Of a stretch of 64,000 bases of DNA, positions 36,527 through 44,158 are shown in pieces. Origin of the DNA: Mesorhizobium sp. (GTDB lineage: Bacteria; Pseudomonadota; Alphaproteobacteria; Rhizobiales; Rhizobiaceae); assembly GCA_004020545.1 (NCBI GenBank), contig SAQE01000009.1, positions 1 to 64,000 of the forward strand. Reading direction: 5' to 3'. Each line of letters opens with the position of its first letter. Position 1 is the stretch's first letter. The position numbers and the translations under genes are program-made. The notes under the pieces are model-generated. The model saw only the letters and a program-made list of their open reading frames with translations. It had not been told where the DNA came from and ran no database searches.

Positions 36527-37780
36527 TTAACCCGCCGCCCTCGCAGGCTCATCCTCCTGAAACGCGGCAAGCGCCGCCTTCAGCGCATCCGGCCCGGCCG
36601 CGACAGTCTGCGGCGCGGGCGAGAAGCCGGCGCCGAGCATCTTGCGGCCAAGCATGTGGTCGGCCGGGCGGTTGACGGATTCGATGCCGAGCAGCCGGTT
36701 GCCGGCATAGTGGTAGATCGAGAATTTGTTCTCAGCCGGCTCGCCCAGCACGACATGGCTGTCGCCGCCTTGCGTCAGGCCGACCATCTGCAGCTTCATG
36801 TCGCCGATGTCCGACCAGAACCACGGCACGGCGGAGAACGGTTCGGCATGCCCAAGGATGGTGCGCGCAGCAAGCCGCGCCTGGTCGGTGGCGTTCTGTA
36901 CCGATTCCAGCCGCACGTCGCCGCCGGTGAACCAGTGCCGGTAGGATGCCGCATCGCCGACCGCGAGGATTTCGGGGATCGAGCTCTGCATATGCTGGTC
37001 GACGCGGATGCCGTTGCCGATAGCCAGGCCGGCGGCCTCCGCCAGCTCGACATTGGGCACCACGCCGATGCCGATGATCACCATCCGTGCCGGCAGCCGC
37101 TCGCCGCTCGAGATGATTGCGGCCGAGACGCTGCCGCCTTCGCCTTCCAGACGGGAAACTGTGGTGCCGGTGAGCACGCGCACGCCCATCGTCTCCAGCC
37201 GCTGGCGCACATGCGCCGCGATCACCGGCGCCACCGCGCGGCCGAGCAGCCGGTCGACCGCCTCGACGACGGTGACCTTGCGCCCGGCGGCCCTGAGCGT
37301 CGCCGCGATCTCGAGGCCGATGAAGCCGCCGCCGAGTATGACCACGTCCTCGCTTTGCGCGCTGAGCTCGCGGATCAGCCGCGCGTCCGCCAGCGAGCGC
37401 AGCGACACCACGCCGGCCAGCTCCGCGCCGTCGAGCTCGAGAAGACGGGGCCGCGATCCGGTCGCGAGCACCAGCCGGTCGAAGGCAATTGCGCCGCCGC
37501 CGCAAACCTCGAGCCTGCGCGCGCCAATATCGATCCGGTCGATCCAAACACCCGGCCGGTAATCGATGGCATTGCCGGAATAGAAGGCTTCGCCGCGCAA
37601 GGGCTGAGGCTTGGCTTCGGCATCCTTGATGAAGGTCTTGGACAGCGGCGGCTTGTGATAGGGCAGTTCGTTCTCGTCGCCGATCAGGATGACGGGTCCA
37701 TCATAGCCTTCCTCGCGCAGGCTCGCGGCCGCCTGCACGCCGGCATGACCCGCACCGACAATGACCACCCCGTTCTTCAT
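36527..37780 (-). CDS. FAD-dependent oxidoreductase (ferredoxin reductase type)
   Basis: A 417-residue pyridine nucleotide-disulfide oxidoreductase of the rhodocoxin/putidaredoxin reductase type. The FAD motif VIVGAGHAGVQAA is at the N terminus, the NAD motif ILGGGFIGLEIAA is near residue 150, and the FAD-binding EILAVGDAA is near 290. A reductase C-terminal domain (about 320-400) follows. It would pass electrons from NADH to a [2Fe-2S] ferredoxin. No ferredoxin or P450 gene is adjacent, though a bfd ferredoxin lies in the divergent operon. Confidence 0.92.
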   Translation of the reverse strand: MKNGVVIVGAGHAGVQAAASLREEGYDGPVILIGDENELPYHKPPLSKTFIKDAEAKPQPLRGEAFYSGNAIDYRPGVWIDRIDIGARRLEVCGGGAIAFDRLVLATGSRPRLLELDGAELAGVVSLRSLADARLIRELSAQSEDVVILGGGFIGLEIAATLRAAGRKVTVVEAVDRLLGRAVAPVIAAHVRQRLETMGVRVLTGTTVSRLEGEGGSVSAAIISSGERLPARMVIIGIGVVPNVELAEAAGLAIGNGIRVDQHMQSSIPEILAVGDAASYRHWFTGGDVRLESVQNATDQARLAARTILGHAEPFSAVPWFWSDIGDMKLQMVGLTQGGDSHVVLGEPAENKFSIYHYAGNRLLGIESVNRPADHMLGRKMLGAGFSPAPQTVAAGPDALKAALAAFQEDEPARAAG

Positions 37781-37932
37781 CGCAGTCTCTTTTTTGCGTT
37801 CAAATCTAGGATCTTCCGCCAGGTGGCGATTGTCTGCCGCCGCCGCAAGAGCCGTGGTTCGGGTCGCACCCGGAACGGCCGCCTGTCAATGCGGATGTTC
37901 GGCGGCGTCACCGGGCTTAAAGTTGATAATTG

Positions 37933-37955
37933 CAGTTTAGAATTATTCTAAACTG
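37933..37955. promoter_or_regulatory. ICE box (Irr-binding iron-control element)
   Basis: CAGTTTAGAA-TTA-TTCTAAACTG is a perfect 10-base inverted repeat. Its core TTTAGAA-N3-TTCTAAA equals the published rhizobial ICE consensus. It lies in the 430-bp gap between the divergent FAD-reductase gene and the iron operon, 255 bases before the first imelysin ATG. The rest of this gap shows a possible promoter (TTGACT at 37987-37992, 17 bases, TTTATG) and no credible gene. Confidence 0.85.
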
Positions 37956-38210
37956 TTGTTTCAATTGATTTTTCCTGTCGCGCCAGTTGACTTCCTGCCG
38001 CTCCGCCGCTTTATGGAGAGCTCGCGCTCCTGGCGCACCCCTTTGATGTCTGGGCCTTGAACCCTTTCGATTGGAGGCATTTCGGTGTCTTTTGCTGATT
38101 GGCTGCGCCATTGCGCGGCAACCTTGCCTTTCCGTCATTCGTGTTTGCGCTGGCGCCGCGCGCCCGCGGCCGCACACGTATGTCATTGAATTTCTGAGGA
38201 GATGGGATTG

Positions 38211-39527
38211 ATGAAAGCGATAATCACGCCACGAGTTATTACGTCACGTTGGGGCAGCAGGCTTGCCGCGATCGGCGCCACCGCGGCGCTGACGGCTGCT
38301 GTGTTCGTGCTGCCGGCGAAAGCCGAAACCGATGCGAAGGCGGTGATCAAGACCTATGCCGACATCGCATTGGCCAAGTACGAGGATTCGCTGACCACCG
38401 CGCAGGCGCTCGACAAGGCCGTCGACGCGCTCATCGCCAGGCCCTCGGCAGAAACGCTCAACGCCGCGCGCGAGGCCTGGAAGGCGGCGCGCGTCCCTTA
38501 CCAGCAGACAGAGGTCTATCGCTTCGGCAACAAGATCGTCGACGACTGGGAAGGCCGGGTGAACTCCTGGCCACTGGATGAAGGCCTGATCGACTATGTC
38601 GCCAAGAGCTACGGCACGGAGTCGGACGAGAACTCGCTCTATACGGCTAATGTCATCGCCAACAAGGAGATCGAGATCAACGGCAAGAAGGTCGACGCCT
38701 CGAAGCTGACGCCCGAATTCCTCTCCGGCACGCTGCAGGAAGCCGGCGGCGTCGAGGCCAATGTCGCGACCGGCTATCACGCCGTCGAATTCCTGCTCTG
38801 GGGCCAGGACCTGCACGGCACAGGCCCCGGCGCCGGCGAGCGCCCCTACACCGACTACGATCTCAAGAACTGCACCAATGGTAACTGCGACCGCCGCGCG
38901 GAATATCTGAAGTCGGCAAGCGACCTTCTGGTCTCGGACCTGCAGGAGATGGTCGGCAACTGGAAGGAAGATGGCGCGGCGCGCAAGGCCCTTACCGATG
39001 GCGAGCCGAATGCCGGCATCGCCACGATCTTCACCGGCATGGGCTCGCTGTCTTATGGCGAGCTGGCCGGCGAGCGCATGAAGCTCGGCCTCTTGCTGCA
39101 CGACCCGGAGGAGGAGCACGACTGCTTCTCCGACAACACCTACAACTCGCATCTCTATGATGCGGTCGGCATCCGCGCCGCCTATCACGCCAGCTATACG
39201 CGTCTCGACGGCACCGTGGTTTCCGGCCCGTCGGTGTCGGACATGGTCAAGGCCGCCGATCCGGCGATCGACAAGGAGCTGTCGGGCAAGCTCGACGTCA
39301 CCGTCGCCAAGATGGAAGCGATCAAGGCGCGCGCGCTGGCCGGAGAAGCCTATGACCAGCAGATCGCCGAGGGTAACGCGGAAGGCAACGCTACGGTGCA
39401 GGCGGCGATCGATGCGCTGATCGACCAGACCAAGTCGATCGAGCGCGCCGTCGGCTCGCTCAAGCTCAACGCCATCGCCTTCGAGGGTTCCGACAGCCTT
39501 GATGCGCCCGATAAAGTCTTCAAGTAA
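38211..39527 (+). CDS. Imelysin family periplasmic iron-regulated protein (first copy)
   Basis: A 438-residue secreted protein with a Sec signal (about 1-38, ending PAKAE). The imelysin metal motif GxHxxE is intact as GYHAVEFLLWGQD (G188, H190, E193). GAGGAG nine bases upstream favours this ATG over one at 38202. Family members bind iron in the periplasm and are induced or controlled by iron; a peptidase role is doubtful. First gene behind the ICE box. Confidence 0.92.
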   Translation: MKAIITPRVITSRWGSRLAAIGATAALTAAVFVLPAKAETDAKAVIKTYADIALAKYEDSLTTAQALDKAVDALIARPSAETLNAAREAWKAARVPYQQTEVYRFGNKIVDDWEGRVNSWPLDEGLIDYVAKSYGTESDENSLYTANVIANKEIEINGKKVDASKLTPEFLSGTLQEAGGVEANVATGYHAVEFLLWGQDLHGTGPGAGERPYTDYDLKNCTNGNCDRRAEYLKSASDLLVSDLQEMVGNWKEDGAARKALTDGEPNAGIATIFTGMGSLSYGELAGERMKLGLLLHDPEEEHDCFSDNTYNSHLYDAVGIRAAYHASYTRLDGTVVSGPSVSDMVKAADPAIDKELSGKLDVTVAKMEAIKARALAGEAYDQQIAEGNAEGNATVQAAIDALIDQTKSIERAVGSLKLNAIAFEGSDSLDAPDKVFK

Positions 39528-39547
39528 CGTCGGCCCAGTACAGCCAA

Positions 39548-39568
39548 ACGGCGCCGGAGCGGCGCCGT
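39548..39568 (+). promoter_or_regulatory. Strong intercistronic hairpin in the iron operon
   Basis: ACGGCGCCG-GAG-CGGCGCCGT, a perfect 9-base stem with a 3-base loop and no T-run. It is probably an mRNA processing or stability element that separates imelysin from bfd-bfr expression. Confidence 0.5.
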
Positions 39569-39584
39569 CAGCCAGAGCAAGTAA

Positions 39585-39896
39585 ATGCTGATCTGCCACT
39601 GCAACATCATCACCGAAAAGGAGATCGAGCAGACGATCGTCGGTCTGCTGGATGAAGATCCCTGGCAGCTTATTGTGCCGGCCAAGGTCTATCATGCCAT
39701 GGGCAAGCGCGGCCGCTGTTGCGGCTGCTTCCCAAATGTGGTGGAAACGATCATTCGGGTCACCGAGGACTACCACGCCCGGTCAGAGGGGAGCGGCGTG
39801 GACATCGTTTCACACCTGGACCGCGTGAGAGGCTTGCGCGTCCAATACGGGAGCAGATTCCATGAAAGGCGAACCGCAGATCATCGAGCGGCTTAA
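39585..39896 (+). CDS. bfd: Bacterioferritin-associated ferredoxin
   Basis: A 103-residue [2Fe-2S] protein. Ligands Cys4, Cys6, Cys45 and Cys48 are in the Bfd arrangement (CHC then CCGC). It reduces the ferric core of bacterioferritin to release iron in the cytoplasm. It is longer than usual because residues beyond about 65 form a polar tail whose last 35 bases overlap bfr. Confidence 0.9.
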
Positions 39897-40347
39897 CGAG
39901 GCCCTGTTTCTGGAGCTCGGGGCCGTCAATCAGTACTGGGTCCACTATCGTCTGCTTGAGGATTGGGGATACACCAGGCTGGCAAAGAAGGAGCGGGCGG
40001 AATCGATCGAGGAAATGCATCACGCCGACCGGCTGGTGGCCCGCATCATCTTCCTCGAAGGCCATCCGAACCTGCAGTCCGTCGCGCCGCTGCGCATCGG
40101 CCAGAACGTCAAGGAAGTGCTCGAATCCGATCTTGCCGGCGAATATGACGCGCGTACCTCCTACAAGCGCTCGCGCGAAATCTGCCAGGAGGCAGGGGAC
40201 TATGTGTCGATGAAACTGTTCGAGGACCTGCTGGCCGACGAGGAAGGCCATATAGACTTCCTGGAGACGCAGCTCGACCTGCTCGCCTCGATCGGCGAGG
40301 AGAAGTACGGCCAGCTCAACGCCGACCCGGCCAACGAGGCGGAGTAA
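39862..40347 (+). CDS. bfr: Bacterioferritin
   Basis: A 161-residue iron-storage protein. Ferroxidase residues are present (Glu in [30 protein letters not shown]). The Met in EEMHHAD is the heme ligand. It forms 24-subunit shells. Its ATG lies 35 bases inside bfd, implying coupled translation and matched amounts. Confidence 0.95.
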
Positions 40348-40360
40348 GGGACATGCGGGA

Positions 40361-41968
40361 ATGCGGCGCCCCGTAAATCTTTTGCGCCGCCTGCGGCGGG
40401 CCAGAGATGGTGGCCTGCCGCTTCAGAAGAACCCGCGGTGCCCGGCGCTGCGCGGACCTTCGCTCCTGATCGCATTCACGATTTCCGCATCGGCGATGGC
40501 TGGCGAGCCGGGACGTGGCGGCTTCGCCGCCAGCCGCAGCGATCTGACGCCGAAGGATCAGGCGCGCGTCCTGGCCGTCACCAGGCCGACAACGGATTTT
40601 TCCAAGCCCGAGCAGTTCGAGCTGATGCAGGGTGGCGCCGGCACGTCGAAGAAGGACGTCAACCGCGACGCCTTCTCGCAATCCTCCGCCAACATCACCT
40701 TCGAGGAGGAAGGCACCTTCAAGCTCGGTAACGCCCTTTTCCGCAAGAACTGGGTATCGTCGCCTTCGTCGACGCAGGCCTCTGACGGGCTCGGCCCGCT
40801 GTTCAACGAACGCGCCTGCCAGAACTGCCATCTGAAGGATGGCCGCGGCCGTCCGCCCGGGGGCAGCGTCGGTTCCACGTCGATGTTCCTGCGGCTGGCG
40901 CGCGACGCAAGCAACGCGGAGGAGAAGGCCGCGCTTGCCGACCGCAAGGTGCTGAATTTCCCCGATCCGGTCTATGGCTCCCAACTGCAGGATCTCGCGG
41001 TTCCCGGCCTCAAGGGCGAAGGCCGCATGCGCGTGGATTACACGGAAGAAAAGGTGACGCTTGGTGACGGCACGGTGGTTTTGCTGCGCAAGCCCACCTA
41101 TTCGGTCGAAGACCTCGCCTACGGTCCGCTTGATGCAAGCACCACTTTGTCGCCGCGAATGACGCCGCCGATGATCGGCCTCGGCCTGATCGAGCAGATT
41201 GCGCCGGCCGATATCCTCGCCCATGCCGATCCTCACGATCGCGACGGCGACGGCATTTCGGGCAGGCCCAACATCGTGCGTGACGCGCCAGGCGGCAAAC
41301 CGGCACTTGGCCGCTTCGGCTGGAAGGCGCAGGCCGCGTCGATCCGCCAGCAGGCCGCCGATGCCTTTGCCGGCGACGTCGGCATCTCGACGCCGGAGGT
41401 GCCGAAGCCTTGGGGCGACTGCACCGAAGCGCAGAAGGATTGTCTCGCCATGCCGAATGGCGTGCAGAAGCGCCTGGGCGCCGCGGAGGCGCCGCCGCCG
41501 GTCATGGACCTTGTCACCTTCTATTCGCAGAACCTGGCCGTGCCGGCGCGCCGCGATATCGGCACACGGCAAGTTCTTGCCGGCAAGAAGCAGTTCTACG
41601 AAATGGGCTGCATTTCCTGCCACACGCCGAAATTCGTCACCCTGCGCGGGACGCCCAACAAGGCGCAGGCCTTCCAGCTGATCTGGCCCTATTCCGACTT
41701 CCTGTTGCATGACATGGGCGAGGGTCTGGCCGACGGGCAGCGGGTGGGGGAAGCGAGCGGCAGCGAATGGCGCACGCCGCCGCTCTGGGGCATCGGCCTG
41801 ACCGCGACGGTCAACGGCAATACTTTCTACCTGCATGATGGCCGCGCGCGTACGCTTGCCGAGGCGATCCTCTGGCACGGCGGCGAGAGCCAGAAGGCGC
41901 GCGACCGCTTTGCCGACGCCACCGCGGCCGACCGCGATGCGCTGATCAAATTCCTGGAGTCGCTATGA
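40361..41968 (+). CDS. Di-heme oxidoreductase family protein (DUF1111 type)
   Basis: A 535-residue secreted protein with two c-type heme motifs: CQNCH (Cys153-His157) and CISCH (Cys417-His421). The second region resembles MauG/cytochrome c peroxidase-like domains. The N terminus has a Sec signal with an unusually long n-region (about 30 residues), so the true start may be later. It begins 13 bases after bfr. In this context it is probably a periplasmic redox enzyme acting on iron or an iron ligand; this is inference. Confidence 0.88.
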   Translation: MRRPVNLLRRLRRARDGGLPLQKNPRCPALRGPSLLIAFTISASAMAGEPGRGGFAASRSDLTPKDQARVLAVTRPTTDFSKPEQFELMQGGAGTSKKDVNRDAFSQSSANITFEEEGTFKLGNALFRKNWVSSPSSTQASDGLGPLFNERACQNCHLKDGRGRPPGGSVGSTSMFLRLARDASNAEEKAALADRKVLNFPDPVYGSQLQDLAVPGLKGEGRMRVDYTEEKVTLGDGTVVLLRKPTYSVEDLAYGPLDASTTLSPRMTPPMIGLGLIEQIAPADILAHADPHDRDGDGISGRPNIVRDAPGGKPALGRFGWKAQAASIRQQAADAFAGDVGISTPEVPKPWGDCTEAQKDCLAMPNGVQKRLGAAEAPPPVMDLVTFYSQNLAVPARRDIGTRQVLAGKKQFYEMGCISCHTPKFVTLRGTPNKAQAFQLIWPYSDFLLHDMGEGLADGQRVGEASGSEWRTPPLWGIGLTATVNGNTFYLHDGRARTLAEAILWHGGESQKARDRFADATAADRDALIKFLESL

Positions 41969-43047
41969 TGTCGAAACGCCTGGCAGCCGCGCTTGCTCTC
42001 CCCCTGTTGCTGGCCACTGCATGGCCGGCCTCTGCGGCGGTCAAAGCCTCCGATGTCATTGGACGCGCGATCGACGACTTCGTCCGCCCGGCCTATGCCA
42101 GCCTCGATGACCGGGCAGCGAGCCTGACCAAGACGATGCAGCAGCTTTGCGCGGCACCTTCGGAGCAAAATCTGGATGCGGCGCGCGCGGACTTCTCCGC
42201 CACGGTCGAGGCTTGGTCGGCGGCCGAGATCATCGCCTTCGGGCCGGTCAAGGAGAACAACCGGCTGGAGCGCATGCTCTATTGGCCGGACCGCAAGAGC
42301 ATCGGCTTGAGACAGGTGCAGGCGACGCTCGCCGCCAAGGATCCCTCCGCCACCGATCCGGCGCAACTGGCGGGAAAGAGCGTCGCCATGCAGGGGCTCG
42401 GTGCGCTCGAATATGTGCTTTTCGGCGATGGGGCCGAGATGCTTGCCAAGAAAGATGATCCCTATCGCTGCGCCTACGGCGCGGCGGTGGCCGGCAATAT
42501 CGAGACAATCGCTGGCGAGGTTCGCGACGCCTGGAACAAGCCGGACGGTTTTGCTGCGCTCTGGGCCAATCCGGGGCCGAAGAACCCGCTCTATCGCAAT
42601 GGCACGGAAGCGGTGACGGAACTGGTCGGCGTCTTCATCAACGAGCTGGACATGGTTCGCGATGTTCGCCTCAAGGGCTTCCTCGGGACCAAGCCGGACG
42701 CGGACAAGCCGAAGCAGGCGATCTACTGGCGCTCGCAGAACACGGCGACCTCGCTGGCCGGGAACCTCTCCGGCATCGACCGGTTGTTCCAGGCTTCGAA
42801 GCTTGGCGATGCGCTGCCCGCCGATGCGCGGTGGATGGCCGAATCCATCCACATCCAGCTCACCAACGGCGTGGCGACGGCGAAGTCCGTCACCGGCCCG
42901 ATCGACAAGGCGCTCGCCGATCCGGCATTGCGCGGCAAGCTCGAGCACTTCGCGCTGATCACCTCCAGCCTCTCGAACTTGATCGGCACCAGGATGACCG
43001 CCGAGTTCGGCCTGACCGCCGGCTTTTCGTCGCTGGATGGGGATTGA
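41965..43047 (+). CDS. Imelysin family protein (second copy)
   Basis: A 360-residue protein with a signal peptide ending PASAA. It overlaps the di-heme gene by 4 bases (ATGA). Where the first copy has GxHxxE this one has GLGALE, so the motif His is replaced. It may bind metal differently or act as a partner of the first copy or the heme protein. Confidence 0.88.
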   Translation: MMSKRLAAALALPLLLATAWPASAAVKASDVIGRAIDDFVRPAYASLDDRAASLTKTMQQLCAAPSEQNLDAARADFSATVEAWSAAEIIAFGPVKENNRLERMLYWPDRKSIGLRQVQATLAAKDPSATDPAQLAGKSVAMQGLGALEYVLFGDGAEMLAKKDDPYRCAYGAAVAGNIETIAGEVRDAWNKPDGFAALWANPGPKNPLYRNGTEAVTELVGVFINELDMVRDVRLKGFLGTKPDADKPKQAIYWRSQNTATSLAGNLSGIDRLFQASKLGDALPADARWMAESIHIQLTNGVATAKSVTGPIDKALADPALRGKLEHFALITSSLSNLIGTRMTAEFGLTAGFSSLDGD

Positions 43048-44158
43048 TGCTTTGAGGACCTCGCTCATCGATCGCCGCGATTTCCTCAGAGCCTCGGGCG
43101 CTGGCTTCGCCGCCGCCATGGCGCCGCGCGCCTGGGCGGAAACACTTGCTGCTGACGCTGTCTTTGCCACGGCCTTCGTCAAGCGCGACGGCAGCTTCGG
43201 CGCCGCCGTGCTCTCCGAGGCCGGCAAGATCCTGCACACCGTCGATCTGCCCGACCGTGGCCACGACGTCACTTTCGACCCGGTGTCGAAACGGTCGGTC
43301 GTCTTCGCCCGCCAGCCTGGCACCTTCGCGGTCGTCTTCGACCATGCCGGCCGCGAGCCGCTATTGACTATCGCCAGCGTCGCCGGGCGGCATTTCTTCG
43401 GCCATGGCGTCTTCTCGCCCGACGGCGCGCTGCTCTATGCGACCGAGAATGATTTCGACAACGCCGCCGGTGTCGTCGGCGTTTATGACGCGAAGGCGAA
43501 GTTCAGCCGCGTCGGCGAATTCCCGGCCTACGGCATGGGGCCGCACGAACTGCTGTTGCTTGGCGACGGCCGGACGCTCGCCATTGCCAATGGCGGCATC
43601 GAAACGCATCCGGATTTCGGCCGCGCCGAGCTCAACATCGCAACGATGAAGCCGTCTTACACGCTGGTCGACCGCATCACCGGCGATCTGATCGAAAAGC
43701 ATGAGCTGCCACCGGCGCTGCACCAGCTTTCGATCCGCCACATGGACCGCGACCAGGCGGGCACCGTCTGGTTCGGCTGCCAGTATCGCGGGCCAGCGAC
43801 CGATCGCCCCGCGCTGGTCGGCCGCGCCGCGCGCGGCAAGGAGCTCGAGCTATTGGAGATGCCGCAGGACGTGCTCTCCGGCTTCCGCAACTATATCGGT
43901 TCGGTCGCCGCCAATCCCGCCGCCGGCACGCTCGCCGTCACCTCGCCGGAGGGCAATTCGCTCGCCGTCATCGACGCCGTTAGCGGGCGCGTTGTCGCGA
44001 CCAGATCGCTTGTCGAAGTTTGCGGCCTGGCTCCCGATCGCGCTGGCTTCATGGCGACGACGGGCGCCGGCGAGATCGTCGGCGGTGCGGGTGCTTTGCG
44101 CTCCGAACCCGACTATGTCTGGGACAACCACGTGCTGCGCATCACGGCCGCTGCCTGA
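43037..44158 (+). CDS. DUF1513 beta-propeller protein, Tat-exported
   Basis: A 373-residue protein. A twin-arginine signal DRRDFLRASGAGFAAAMAP near residues 12-30 is followed by a propeller-like repeat pattern (GHDVTFDPVS, GHGVFSPDG, GMGPHELLLL, HQLSIRHMD). It overlaps the second imelysin gene by 11 bases; a TTG at 43052 is an alternative start. DUF1513 genes are known neighbours of imelysin and DUF1111 genes; molecular role unknown. Confidence 0.87.
   Translation: MGIDALRTSLIDRRDFLRASGAGFAAAMAPRAWAETLAADAVFATAFVKRDGSFGAAVLSEAGKILHTVDLPDRGHDVTFDPVSKRSVVFARQPGTFAVVFDHAGREPLLTIASVAGRHFFGHGVFSPDGALLYATENDFDNAAGVVGVYDAKAKFSRVGEFPAYGMGPHELLLLGDGRTLAIANGGIETHPDFGRAELNIATMKPSYTLVDRITGDLIEKHELPPALHQLSIRHMDRDQAGTVWFGCQYRGPATDRPALVGRAARGKELELLEMPQDVLSGFRNYIGSVAANPAAGTLAVTSPEGNSLAVIDAVSGRVVATRSLVEVCGLAPDRAGFMATTGAGEIVGGAGALRSEPDYVWDNHVLRITAAA

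Follow-up and report, generated by a model that had tools for sequence, protein, structure and literature searches.

Under which iron conditions, and by what means, is the six-gene imelysin-bfd-bfr operon of Mesorhizobium switched on? One such operon lies in the window, by which we mean the whole 64,000-nucleotide (nt) stretch of Mesorhizobium sp. contig SAQE01000009.1 that was analyzed. The initial annotation began its feature (position 37933) at the perfect iron control element (ICE); the start codon of imelysin 1 lies 249 nt downstream of the ICE, and the leader features within this interval, a promoter-like site and a 41-nt RNA element, went unmentioned (Table 1). The operon is an ordinary arrangement for Mesorhizobium with a published counterpart in Rhodobacter and is not new. 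The leader element merits more attention: one 41-nt sequence recurs in many Rhizobiales, precedes several iron-type genes, and has a clear structural prediction. We lean slightly toward the view that it represents an undescribed iron-linked cis-regulatory RNA class of the Rhizobiales, hiding the Shine-Dalgarno sequence of FbpA-like, imelysin, Bfd-like, and SufA-like genes in a translational regulon laid over Irr and RirA, and that the sole copy found in Mesorhizobium controls imelysin-bfd-bfr.

Table 1. Features of the operon, its leader, and related loci (window positions unless a locus is named)
Feature	Position	Strand	Basis or remark
Perfect ICE (Irr) box TTTAGAATTATTCTAAA, TTTAGAA-N3-TTCTAAA	37936..37952	.	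Sequence match
Promoter-like TTGAC-N17-CTTTAT (predicted)	37987..38014	+	Constant spacing; hexamers conserved across 81 aligned leaders
Leader RNA element, 41 nt	38038..38078	+	Conservation, covariance model
Basal stem of element (predicted)	38041-38047/38070-38076	+	Contains Shine-Dalgarno; AUUGGAG with CUUUGAU
Hairpin of element (predicted)	38052-38054/38062-38064	+	Loop CCUUGAA; GGG/CCC only in the window copy
34-codon leader open reading frame, GTG start	38085..38189	+	7 nt downstream of the element's GGAGG
Operon genes	38202-44158	+	Imelysin 1, bfd-like, bfr, DUF1111, imelysin 2, DUF1513
Imelysin 1 (ICMP type)	38202..39527	+	PF09375, E = 6.8e-91; putative signal peptide by eye
bfd-like (bacterioferritin-associated ferredoxin-like, CxC ... 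CxxC)	39585..39896	+	Cysteine pattern, overlap with bfr
bfr (bacterioferritin)	39862..40347	+	TIGR00754 above cut-off
DUF1111/DHOR di-heme oxidoreductase	40361..41968	+	PF06537; two CxxCH (153-157, 417-421)
Imelysin 2 (IPPA type, GxxxxE without His)	41965..43047	+	PF09375, E = 3.1e-52
DUF1513	43037..44158	+	PF07433, twin-arginine N terminus; beta-propeller model
FAD-dependent ferredoxin-type reductase (Pyr_redox_2 + Reductase_C)	36527..37780	-	Divergent; shares the intergenic region with the ICE
Second perfect ICE of the genome	L001:1081-1097		16 nt from start of mbfA-like gene
165- to 180-amino-acid family members	L102:5659-6153, L144:3876-4400, L279:110-619, L319:963-1469		

A leader element shared by iron-type genes

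The leaders of the window and its 80 nearest loci (from a genome scan with DUF1513, best 80 of 186 relatives, nearly all named Mesorhizobium) align in three conserved blocks: the ICE with its flanks, the promoter-like site, and a near-invariant block at about 38041-38079. The third block is also present upstream of imelysin operons in other families, often before a 165-amino-acid (aa) gene. Searching 249 genomes of the order with the leader pattern gave 57 matches in 52 genomes, and the backwards control gave none among the matches listed. A covariance model of 31 sequences (R1) matched 84 of the 249 genomes at E ≤ 0.01 (76 at 0.001) and, at E ≤ 0.001 in a 289-genome sample of the class, the own genome only; both R1 searches scored few candidate places per genome under strict filters, and copies may be missed.

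We recovered 104 distinct copies from 120 loci, the rest being duplicates or loci in which the script did not locate the core (e.g., L311), and about 25 R1 matches in the order, mostly the weakest, fall outside this count. Typing of the downstream genes (tblastn, E ≤ 1e-3, within 900 nt) placed 99 of the 104 copies upstream of iron-type genes: 44 precede FbpA-like genes, 41 the 165-aa gene and/or an imelysin, nine Bfd-like genes, and five SufA-like genes; the remaining five copies precede other genes. An independent observation is that searching with nothing but leader sequence led mostly to iron-type genes. Identities were checked on representatives (three substrate-binding proteins by Pfam, one by PDB sequences, and one SufA); one binding protein is FbpA by sequence (1q35; E = 1.5e-111), and one Bfd-like protein, which had no Pfam match, was named from its cysteines. 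Two divergent elements stand about 190 nt apart in locus L104 (11293-11333 and 11520-11560), and genomes with family label f33 have up to four matches.

A second model, R2, was made from 28 FbpA leaders and no imelysin leader. It has a single match in the window, precisely at the element (35.3 bits, E = 1.5e-8), and one match in each of the 80 relatives, a test that is not independent because the FbpA leaders were found with a pattern and model begun from imelysin leaders. A more diverse set comprises 118 loci around DUF1513, 116 of them non-Mesorhizobium. In 100 of these loci R2 gave 15 matches in 13 loci; all but one of these matches share the strand of imelysin and lie upstream of it, at distances of 95 to 2,497 nt.

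The element resembles translation-blocking leader RNAs, whether riboswitches or protein bound, in the predicted placement of the Shine-Dalgarno sequence within a stem just upstream of the first start codon. It differs from the known ones in having no Rfam 15 match above gathering in the window leader or in eight loci: positions 37780-38260 of the window gave no match at E ≤ 1, and the eight loci gave four sub-gathering matches, all in L236. One of these, RF01668 (P10; 22.7 bits, gathering 37), overlaps the element copy of that locus.

We propose that this is an iron-starvation operon controlled in two layers, by Irr acting at the ICE and through translation at the leader, an explanation to which we give even chances on account of the downstream genes found and the covariation of the hairpin. 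In the second layer, the basal stem would hide the Shine-Dalgarno sequence beneath a hairpin with a fixed CCUUGAA loop, and a common iron-linked signal (a ligand, protein, or small RNA) would open or close the element; a common signal is proposed because this element also stands in front of FbpA-like, Bfd-like, SufA-like, and imelysin genes elsewhere in the Rhizobiales. The products would work on either side of the membrane: in the periplasm, the exported imelysins, di-heme enzyme, and DUF1513 propeller would bind iron and alter its redox state, and Bfd, judging by the families, would free iron from the sole bacterioferritin. Of the annotated idea of a capture and redox unit linked directly to storage, the compact iron operon with its Irr-type box and with redox and imelysin proteins beside the only PF00210 gene is supported. 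The link of capture to storage is one reading, and the other genes behind the leader point rather to a starvation response with Bfd releasing Bfr iron. Should the element respond to iron, it would reveal post-transcriptional control common to these genes in bacteria whose iron regulation has been described in terms of Irr and RirA, and it would link imelysins with ferric uptake and the release of iron, not with storage.

Irr and the direction of the iron response

The perfect ICE reported ahead of the operon is confirmed and is perfect in all 80 nearest loci. The 7.0-Mb genome has only two perfect sites, the other lying upstream of an mbfA-like gene, which we read as mbfA by sequence. Among 114 non-Mesorhizobium imelysin upstream regions, five have an ICE with at most one mismatch (for 139 permuted half-sites the mean was 0.04 and the maximum 3). 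A Fur-family gene on the same contig, 9 kb beyond the window end, is read as irr; from its HHH motif, inspected by eye, we take it to be Irr and not Zur. The genome holds both an ICE near a promoter-like site and a gene read as irr, the combination expected of an Irr regulon.

In the first layer of the proposed control, apo-Irr, active when iron or heme is scarce, would bind the ICE, whose center is about 77 nt upstream of the start site predicted from the promoter-like sequence. Irr would probably activate this site, or else repress an overlapping promoter; direct activation is far commoner for Irr than for Fur (PMC7762939). The window has a single occurrence of the promoter-like pattern, with 0.03 expected; the pattern was picked after the site was seen, and a scan with a stricter promoter consensus gave no matches.

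Repression is the basis of the strongest alternative, that this is an iron-replete storage or detoxification operon in which Irr represses at low iron through an ICE-overlapping promoter and ample iron allows expression of the imelysins and bfr. Rhizobiales bfr is stated to be Irr repressed (PMC7762939), the other perfect ICE precedes the mbfA-like gene, the Irr box of mbfA is described as repressing in Rhodobacter sphaeroides (in the excerpt of PMC3413700 available), and the conserved block reaches past the ICE and contains a TTGACA-like sequence. Against this, the promoter-like site of the 81 leaders is downstream of the ICE without overlapping it, the leader element is common to genes of the iron-starvation type, and irpA, bfd, and bfr of the similar R. 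sphaeroides operon are upregulated in iron limitation according to parts of two reports (PMC3413700, PMC4176601). We regard the storage alternative as unlikely, although it carries real weight.

Predicted structure and proposed translational control

The predicted hairpin is supported by covariation and is a covarying structure at a fixed place, as is characteristic of cis-regulatory RNAs. In a set of 90 distinct 41-mers, 83 have a standard pair at 14-28 (56 when shuffled), with six pair types in use; pairs 15-27 (90 versus 86), 13-29 (71 versus 63), and 17-25 (88 versus 84) also exceed the shuffles, and pair 12-30 is unsupported (34 versus 33). Counts on the 28 FbpA leaders agree, and changes on both sides of the hairpin number 22 versus 10.2 in shuffles, a value that none of 500 shuffles reached; the shuffles do not preserve the relatedness of the sequences. 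Hairpin covariation is likewise above slid controls. In the predicted basal stem, a conserved CNNNGAU would pair with AUUGGAG; the 3' side is nearly fixed, and support therefore comes mostly from one side, with columns 6, 7, and 8 varying almost only among bases still able to pair. The exception is pair 10-33, standard in 80 of 90 (68 shuffled). For the window copy, three of four flank choices give a minimum-energy fold that contains the complete structure, at modest probability.

All 81 leaders have an ATG or GTG behind the leader Shine-Dalgarno sequence. In 49 of them this frame is open for at least 100 codons and, over the part read, continues into imelysin. The other 32, including the window, have a short open reading frame of 28 to 96 codons there; for this reason translational control would be direct in the first set and exerted by coupling in the second.

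Several observations weigh against the two-layer explanation, in addition to the limits given above for the R2 test and the shuffles. The first open reading frame past the Shine-Dalgarno sequence in the window is the 34-codon frame, not imelysin. The window hairpin has three pairs, its basal-stem pairing probability is 0.05 to 0.44 depending on the flank, and its leader does not exceed shuffles in stability (z = +0.97). Almost all variation in the basal stem falls on the 5' side, and the initial search pattern required TTGGAG. Elsewhere, R. sphaeroides irpA is IscR controlled with no Irr box predicted, as given in the portions of PMC3413700 and PMC4618611 considered here.

Some of these points also favor a reading with no cis-acting structure, in which the leader motif is a conserved site targeted by a small RNA in trans, or marks iron genes as a signature at the level of DNA or of translation initiation. 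The loop and Shine-Dalgarno sequence are better conserved than the stems, the hairpin has only three or four pairs in several copies, among them that of the window, and the stability of the window fold is within that of shuffles. The covariation of the hairpin, with up to six pair types above both controls, and its near-constant distance to the Shine-Dalgarno sequence and start codon argue instead for a structured element, and we consider the nonstructural alternative rather unlikely.

The operon, its proteins, and its known relatives

The description of six tightly packed codirectional genes holds, with successive junctions of a 57-nt gap, a 35-nt overlap, a 13-nt gap, and overlaps of 4 and 11 nt. 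Pfam matches and motifs bear out the GxHxxE imelysin, the two-heme DUF1111 protein, the imelysin lacking the histidine, and the Tat-type DUF1513 protein, all predicted by eye to be exported. The bfd-bfr assignment stands for bfr and in part for its neighbor, in which Fer2_BFD scored 17 bits (E = 0.0078), below the cut-off of 26; we label it bfd-like for this reason, although C4, C6, C45, and C48 are conserved in at least 98% of 92 aligned sequences (mostly Mesorhizobium). It was also correct that the operon has no permease or TonB receptor, although the genome was not searched for one.

Imelysin 1 has G191-Y-H193-A-V-E196, with G191, H193, and E196 conserved in at least 98% of 112 aligned sequences, and matches PDB sequence 7xrx (E = 3.7e-125). 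The G144...E149 motif of imelysin 2, without the histidine, is conserved in 90 to 98% of 116 sequences, and its best PDB sequence match is 3pf0 (E = 6.5e-11). Its C terminus reads GFSSLDGD (GFxSxDGD), and F354, D358, G359, and D360 are four of the five imelysin 2 residues conserved in at least 98% of the 116. The two imelysins are the sole PF09375 genes of the genome and bfr is the sole PF00210 ferritin gene (profile search); E18, E51, M52, H54, E94, E127, and H130 of bfr are conserved in at least 98% of 91 sequences. PF06537 and two CxxCH motifs, both conserved in at least 98% of 116 sequences, make the DUF1111 protein a member of the DHOR di-heme oxidoreductase family, with heme binding and activity predicted. 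In DUF1513, whose predicted structure is a propeller (predicted local distance difference test score, 91.2), R13-R14 and H76, H123, H170, H235, and H365 are conserved in at least 98% of 118 sequences, and the five histidines may form a metal site within the propeller.

Imelysin 1, bfd-like, DUF1111, imelysin 2, DUF1513, and the divergent reductase are each present in all 80 nearest loci, and bfr in 79. The conserved imelysin/DUF1111/DUF1513 neighborhood noted earlier is seen here too, with the four core genes in the same order on one strand in 111 of the 118 diverse loci (exceptions, L093, L099, L105, L126, L140, L159, and L205), and the common form in this set is the four-gene core without bfd-bfr. 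At Mesorhizobium loci L075, L091, and L145 (the first two probably from one genome), bfr is not in the operon and bfd-like, the ICE, and the leader are retained. Outside Mesorhizobium, bfd and/or bfr lie behind imelysin 1 in seven of 116 loci with seven family labels (L093, where no DUF1111 was detected; L100, with bfd alone; L102, L112, L144, L146, and L196), and divergently upstream in three more (L092, L101, and L132). That bfd-bfr and the ICE are lineage decorations without joint function on an ordinary imelysin operon is the least probable alternative; it fits the usual four-gene core and the three loci without bfr, but neither these ten non-Mesorhizobium occurrences nor the retention of bfr in nearly all of the nearest loci.

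A multicopper oxidase occupies the bfd-bfr slot, flanked by imelysin and by a DUF1111 gene of greater divergence, in 14 of the 118 loci (L110, L111, L118, L120, L122, L124, L129, L130, L144, L147, L169, L176, L180, and L181; three of the 14 Pfam checked). This speaks for a periplasmic redox step on metal and hints at a ferroxidase-like partner. In 16 of the 118 loci a 165- to 180-aa protein family is encoded upstream of imelysin, and its genes often follow the leader element; Pfam gave no match for four members, nor NCBIfam for two.

The closest published relative is the R. sphaeroides hemP-irpA-bfd-bfr-RSP_1545-1544-1543 operon, for which differential RNA sequencing strongly suggests cotranscription, according to its authors (PMC4618611). 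As far as these excerpts go, it shares irpA, bfd, bfr, a two-heme "thiol oxidoreductase," and two further hypothetical proteins; RSP_1544 and RSP_1543 are named there only as hypothetical (PMC4618611), and we take them as the second imelysin and DUF1513. It begins with hemP, however, and has an IscR/Iron-Rhodo-box where Mesorhizobium has the ICE, and the lack of R1 matches outside the order in the class sample further sets the Mesorhizobium operon apart. Pseudomonas aeruginosa PA4370-PA4373 similarly encodes an ICMP imelysin, a DUF1111-type protein, an IPPA-type imelysin, and a fourth gene but is a Fur-regulated iron operon, and bfd-bfr are not named in the excerpt of PMC3143127. EfeUOB and EfeUOB-M, as partly covered in PMC9174327 and PMC3577903, also join an imelysin-domain protein to an exported heme enzyme in iron uptake, but with the EfeU permease and the DyP-type peroxidase EfeB, in contrast to the di-heme c-type protein of Mesorhizobium. 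In the excerpts available, EfeB is a DUF1111 member in PMC3143127 and a DyP-type heme peroxidase in PMC3577903. Lastly, the divergent reductase is possibly a partner of Bfd.

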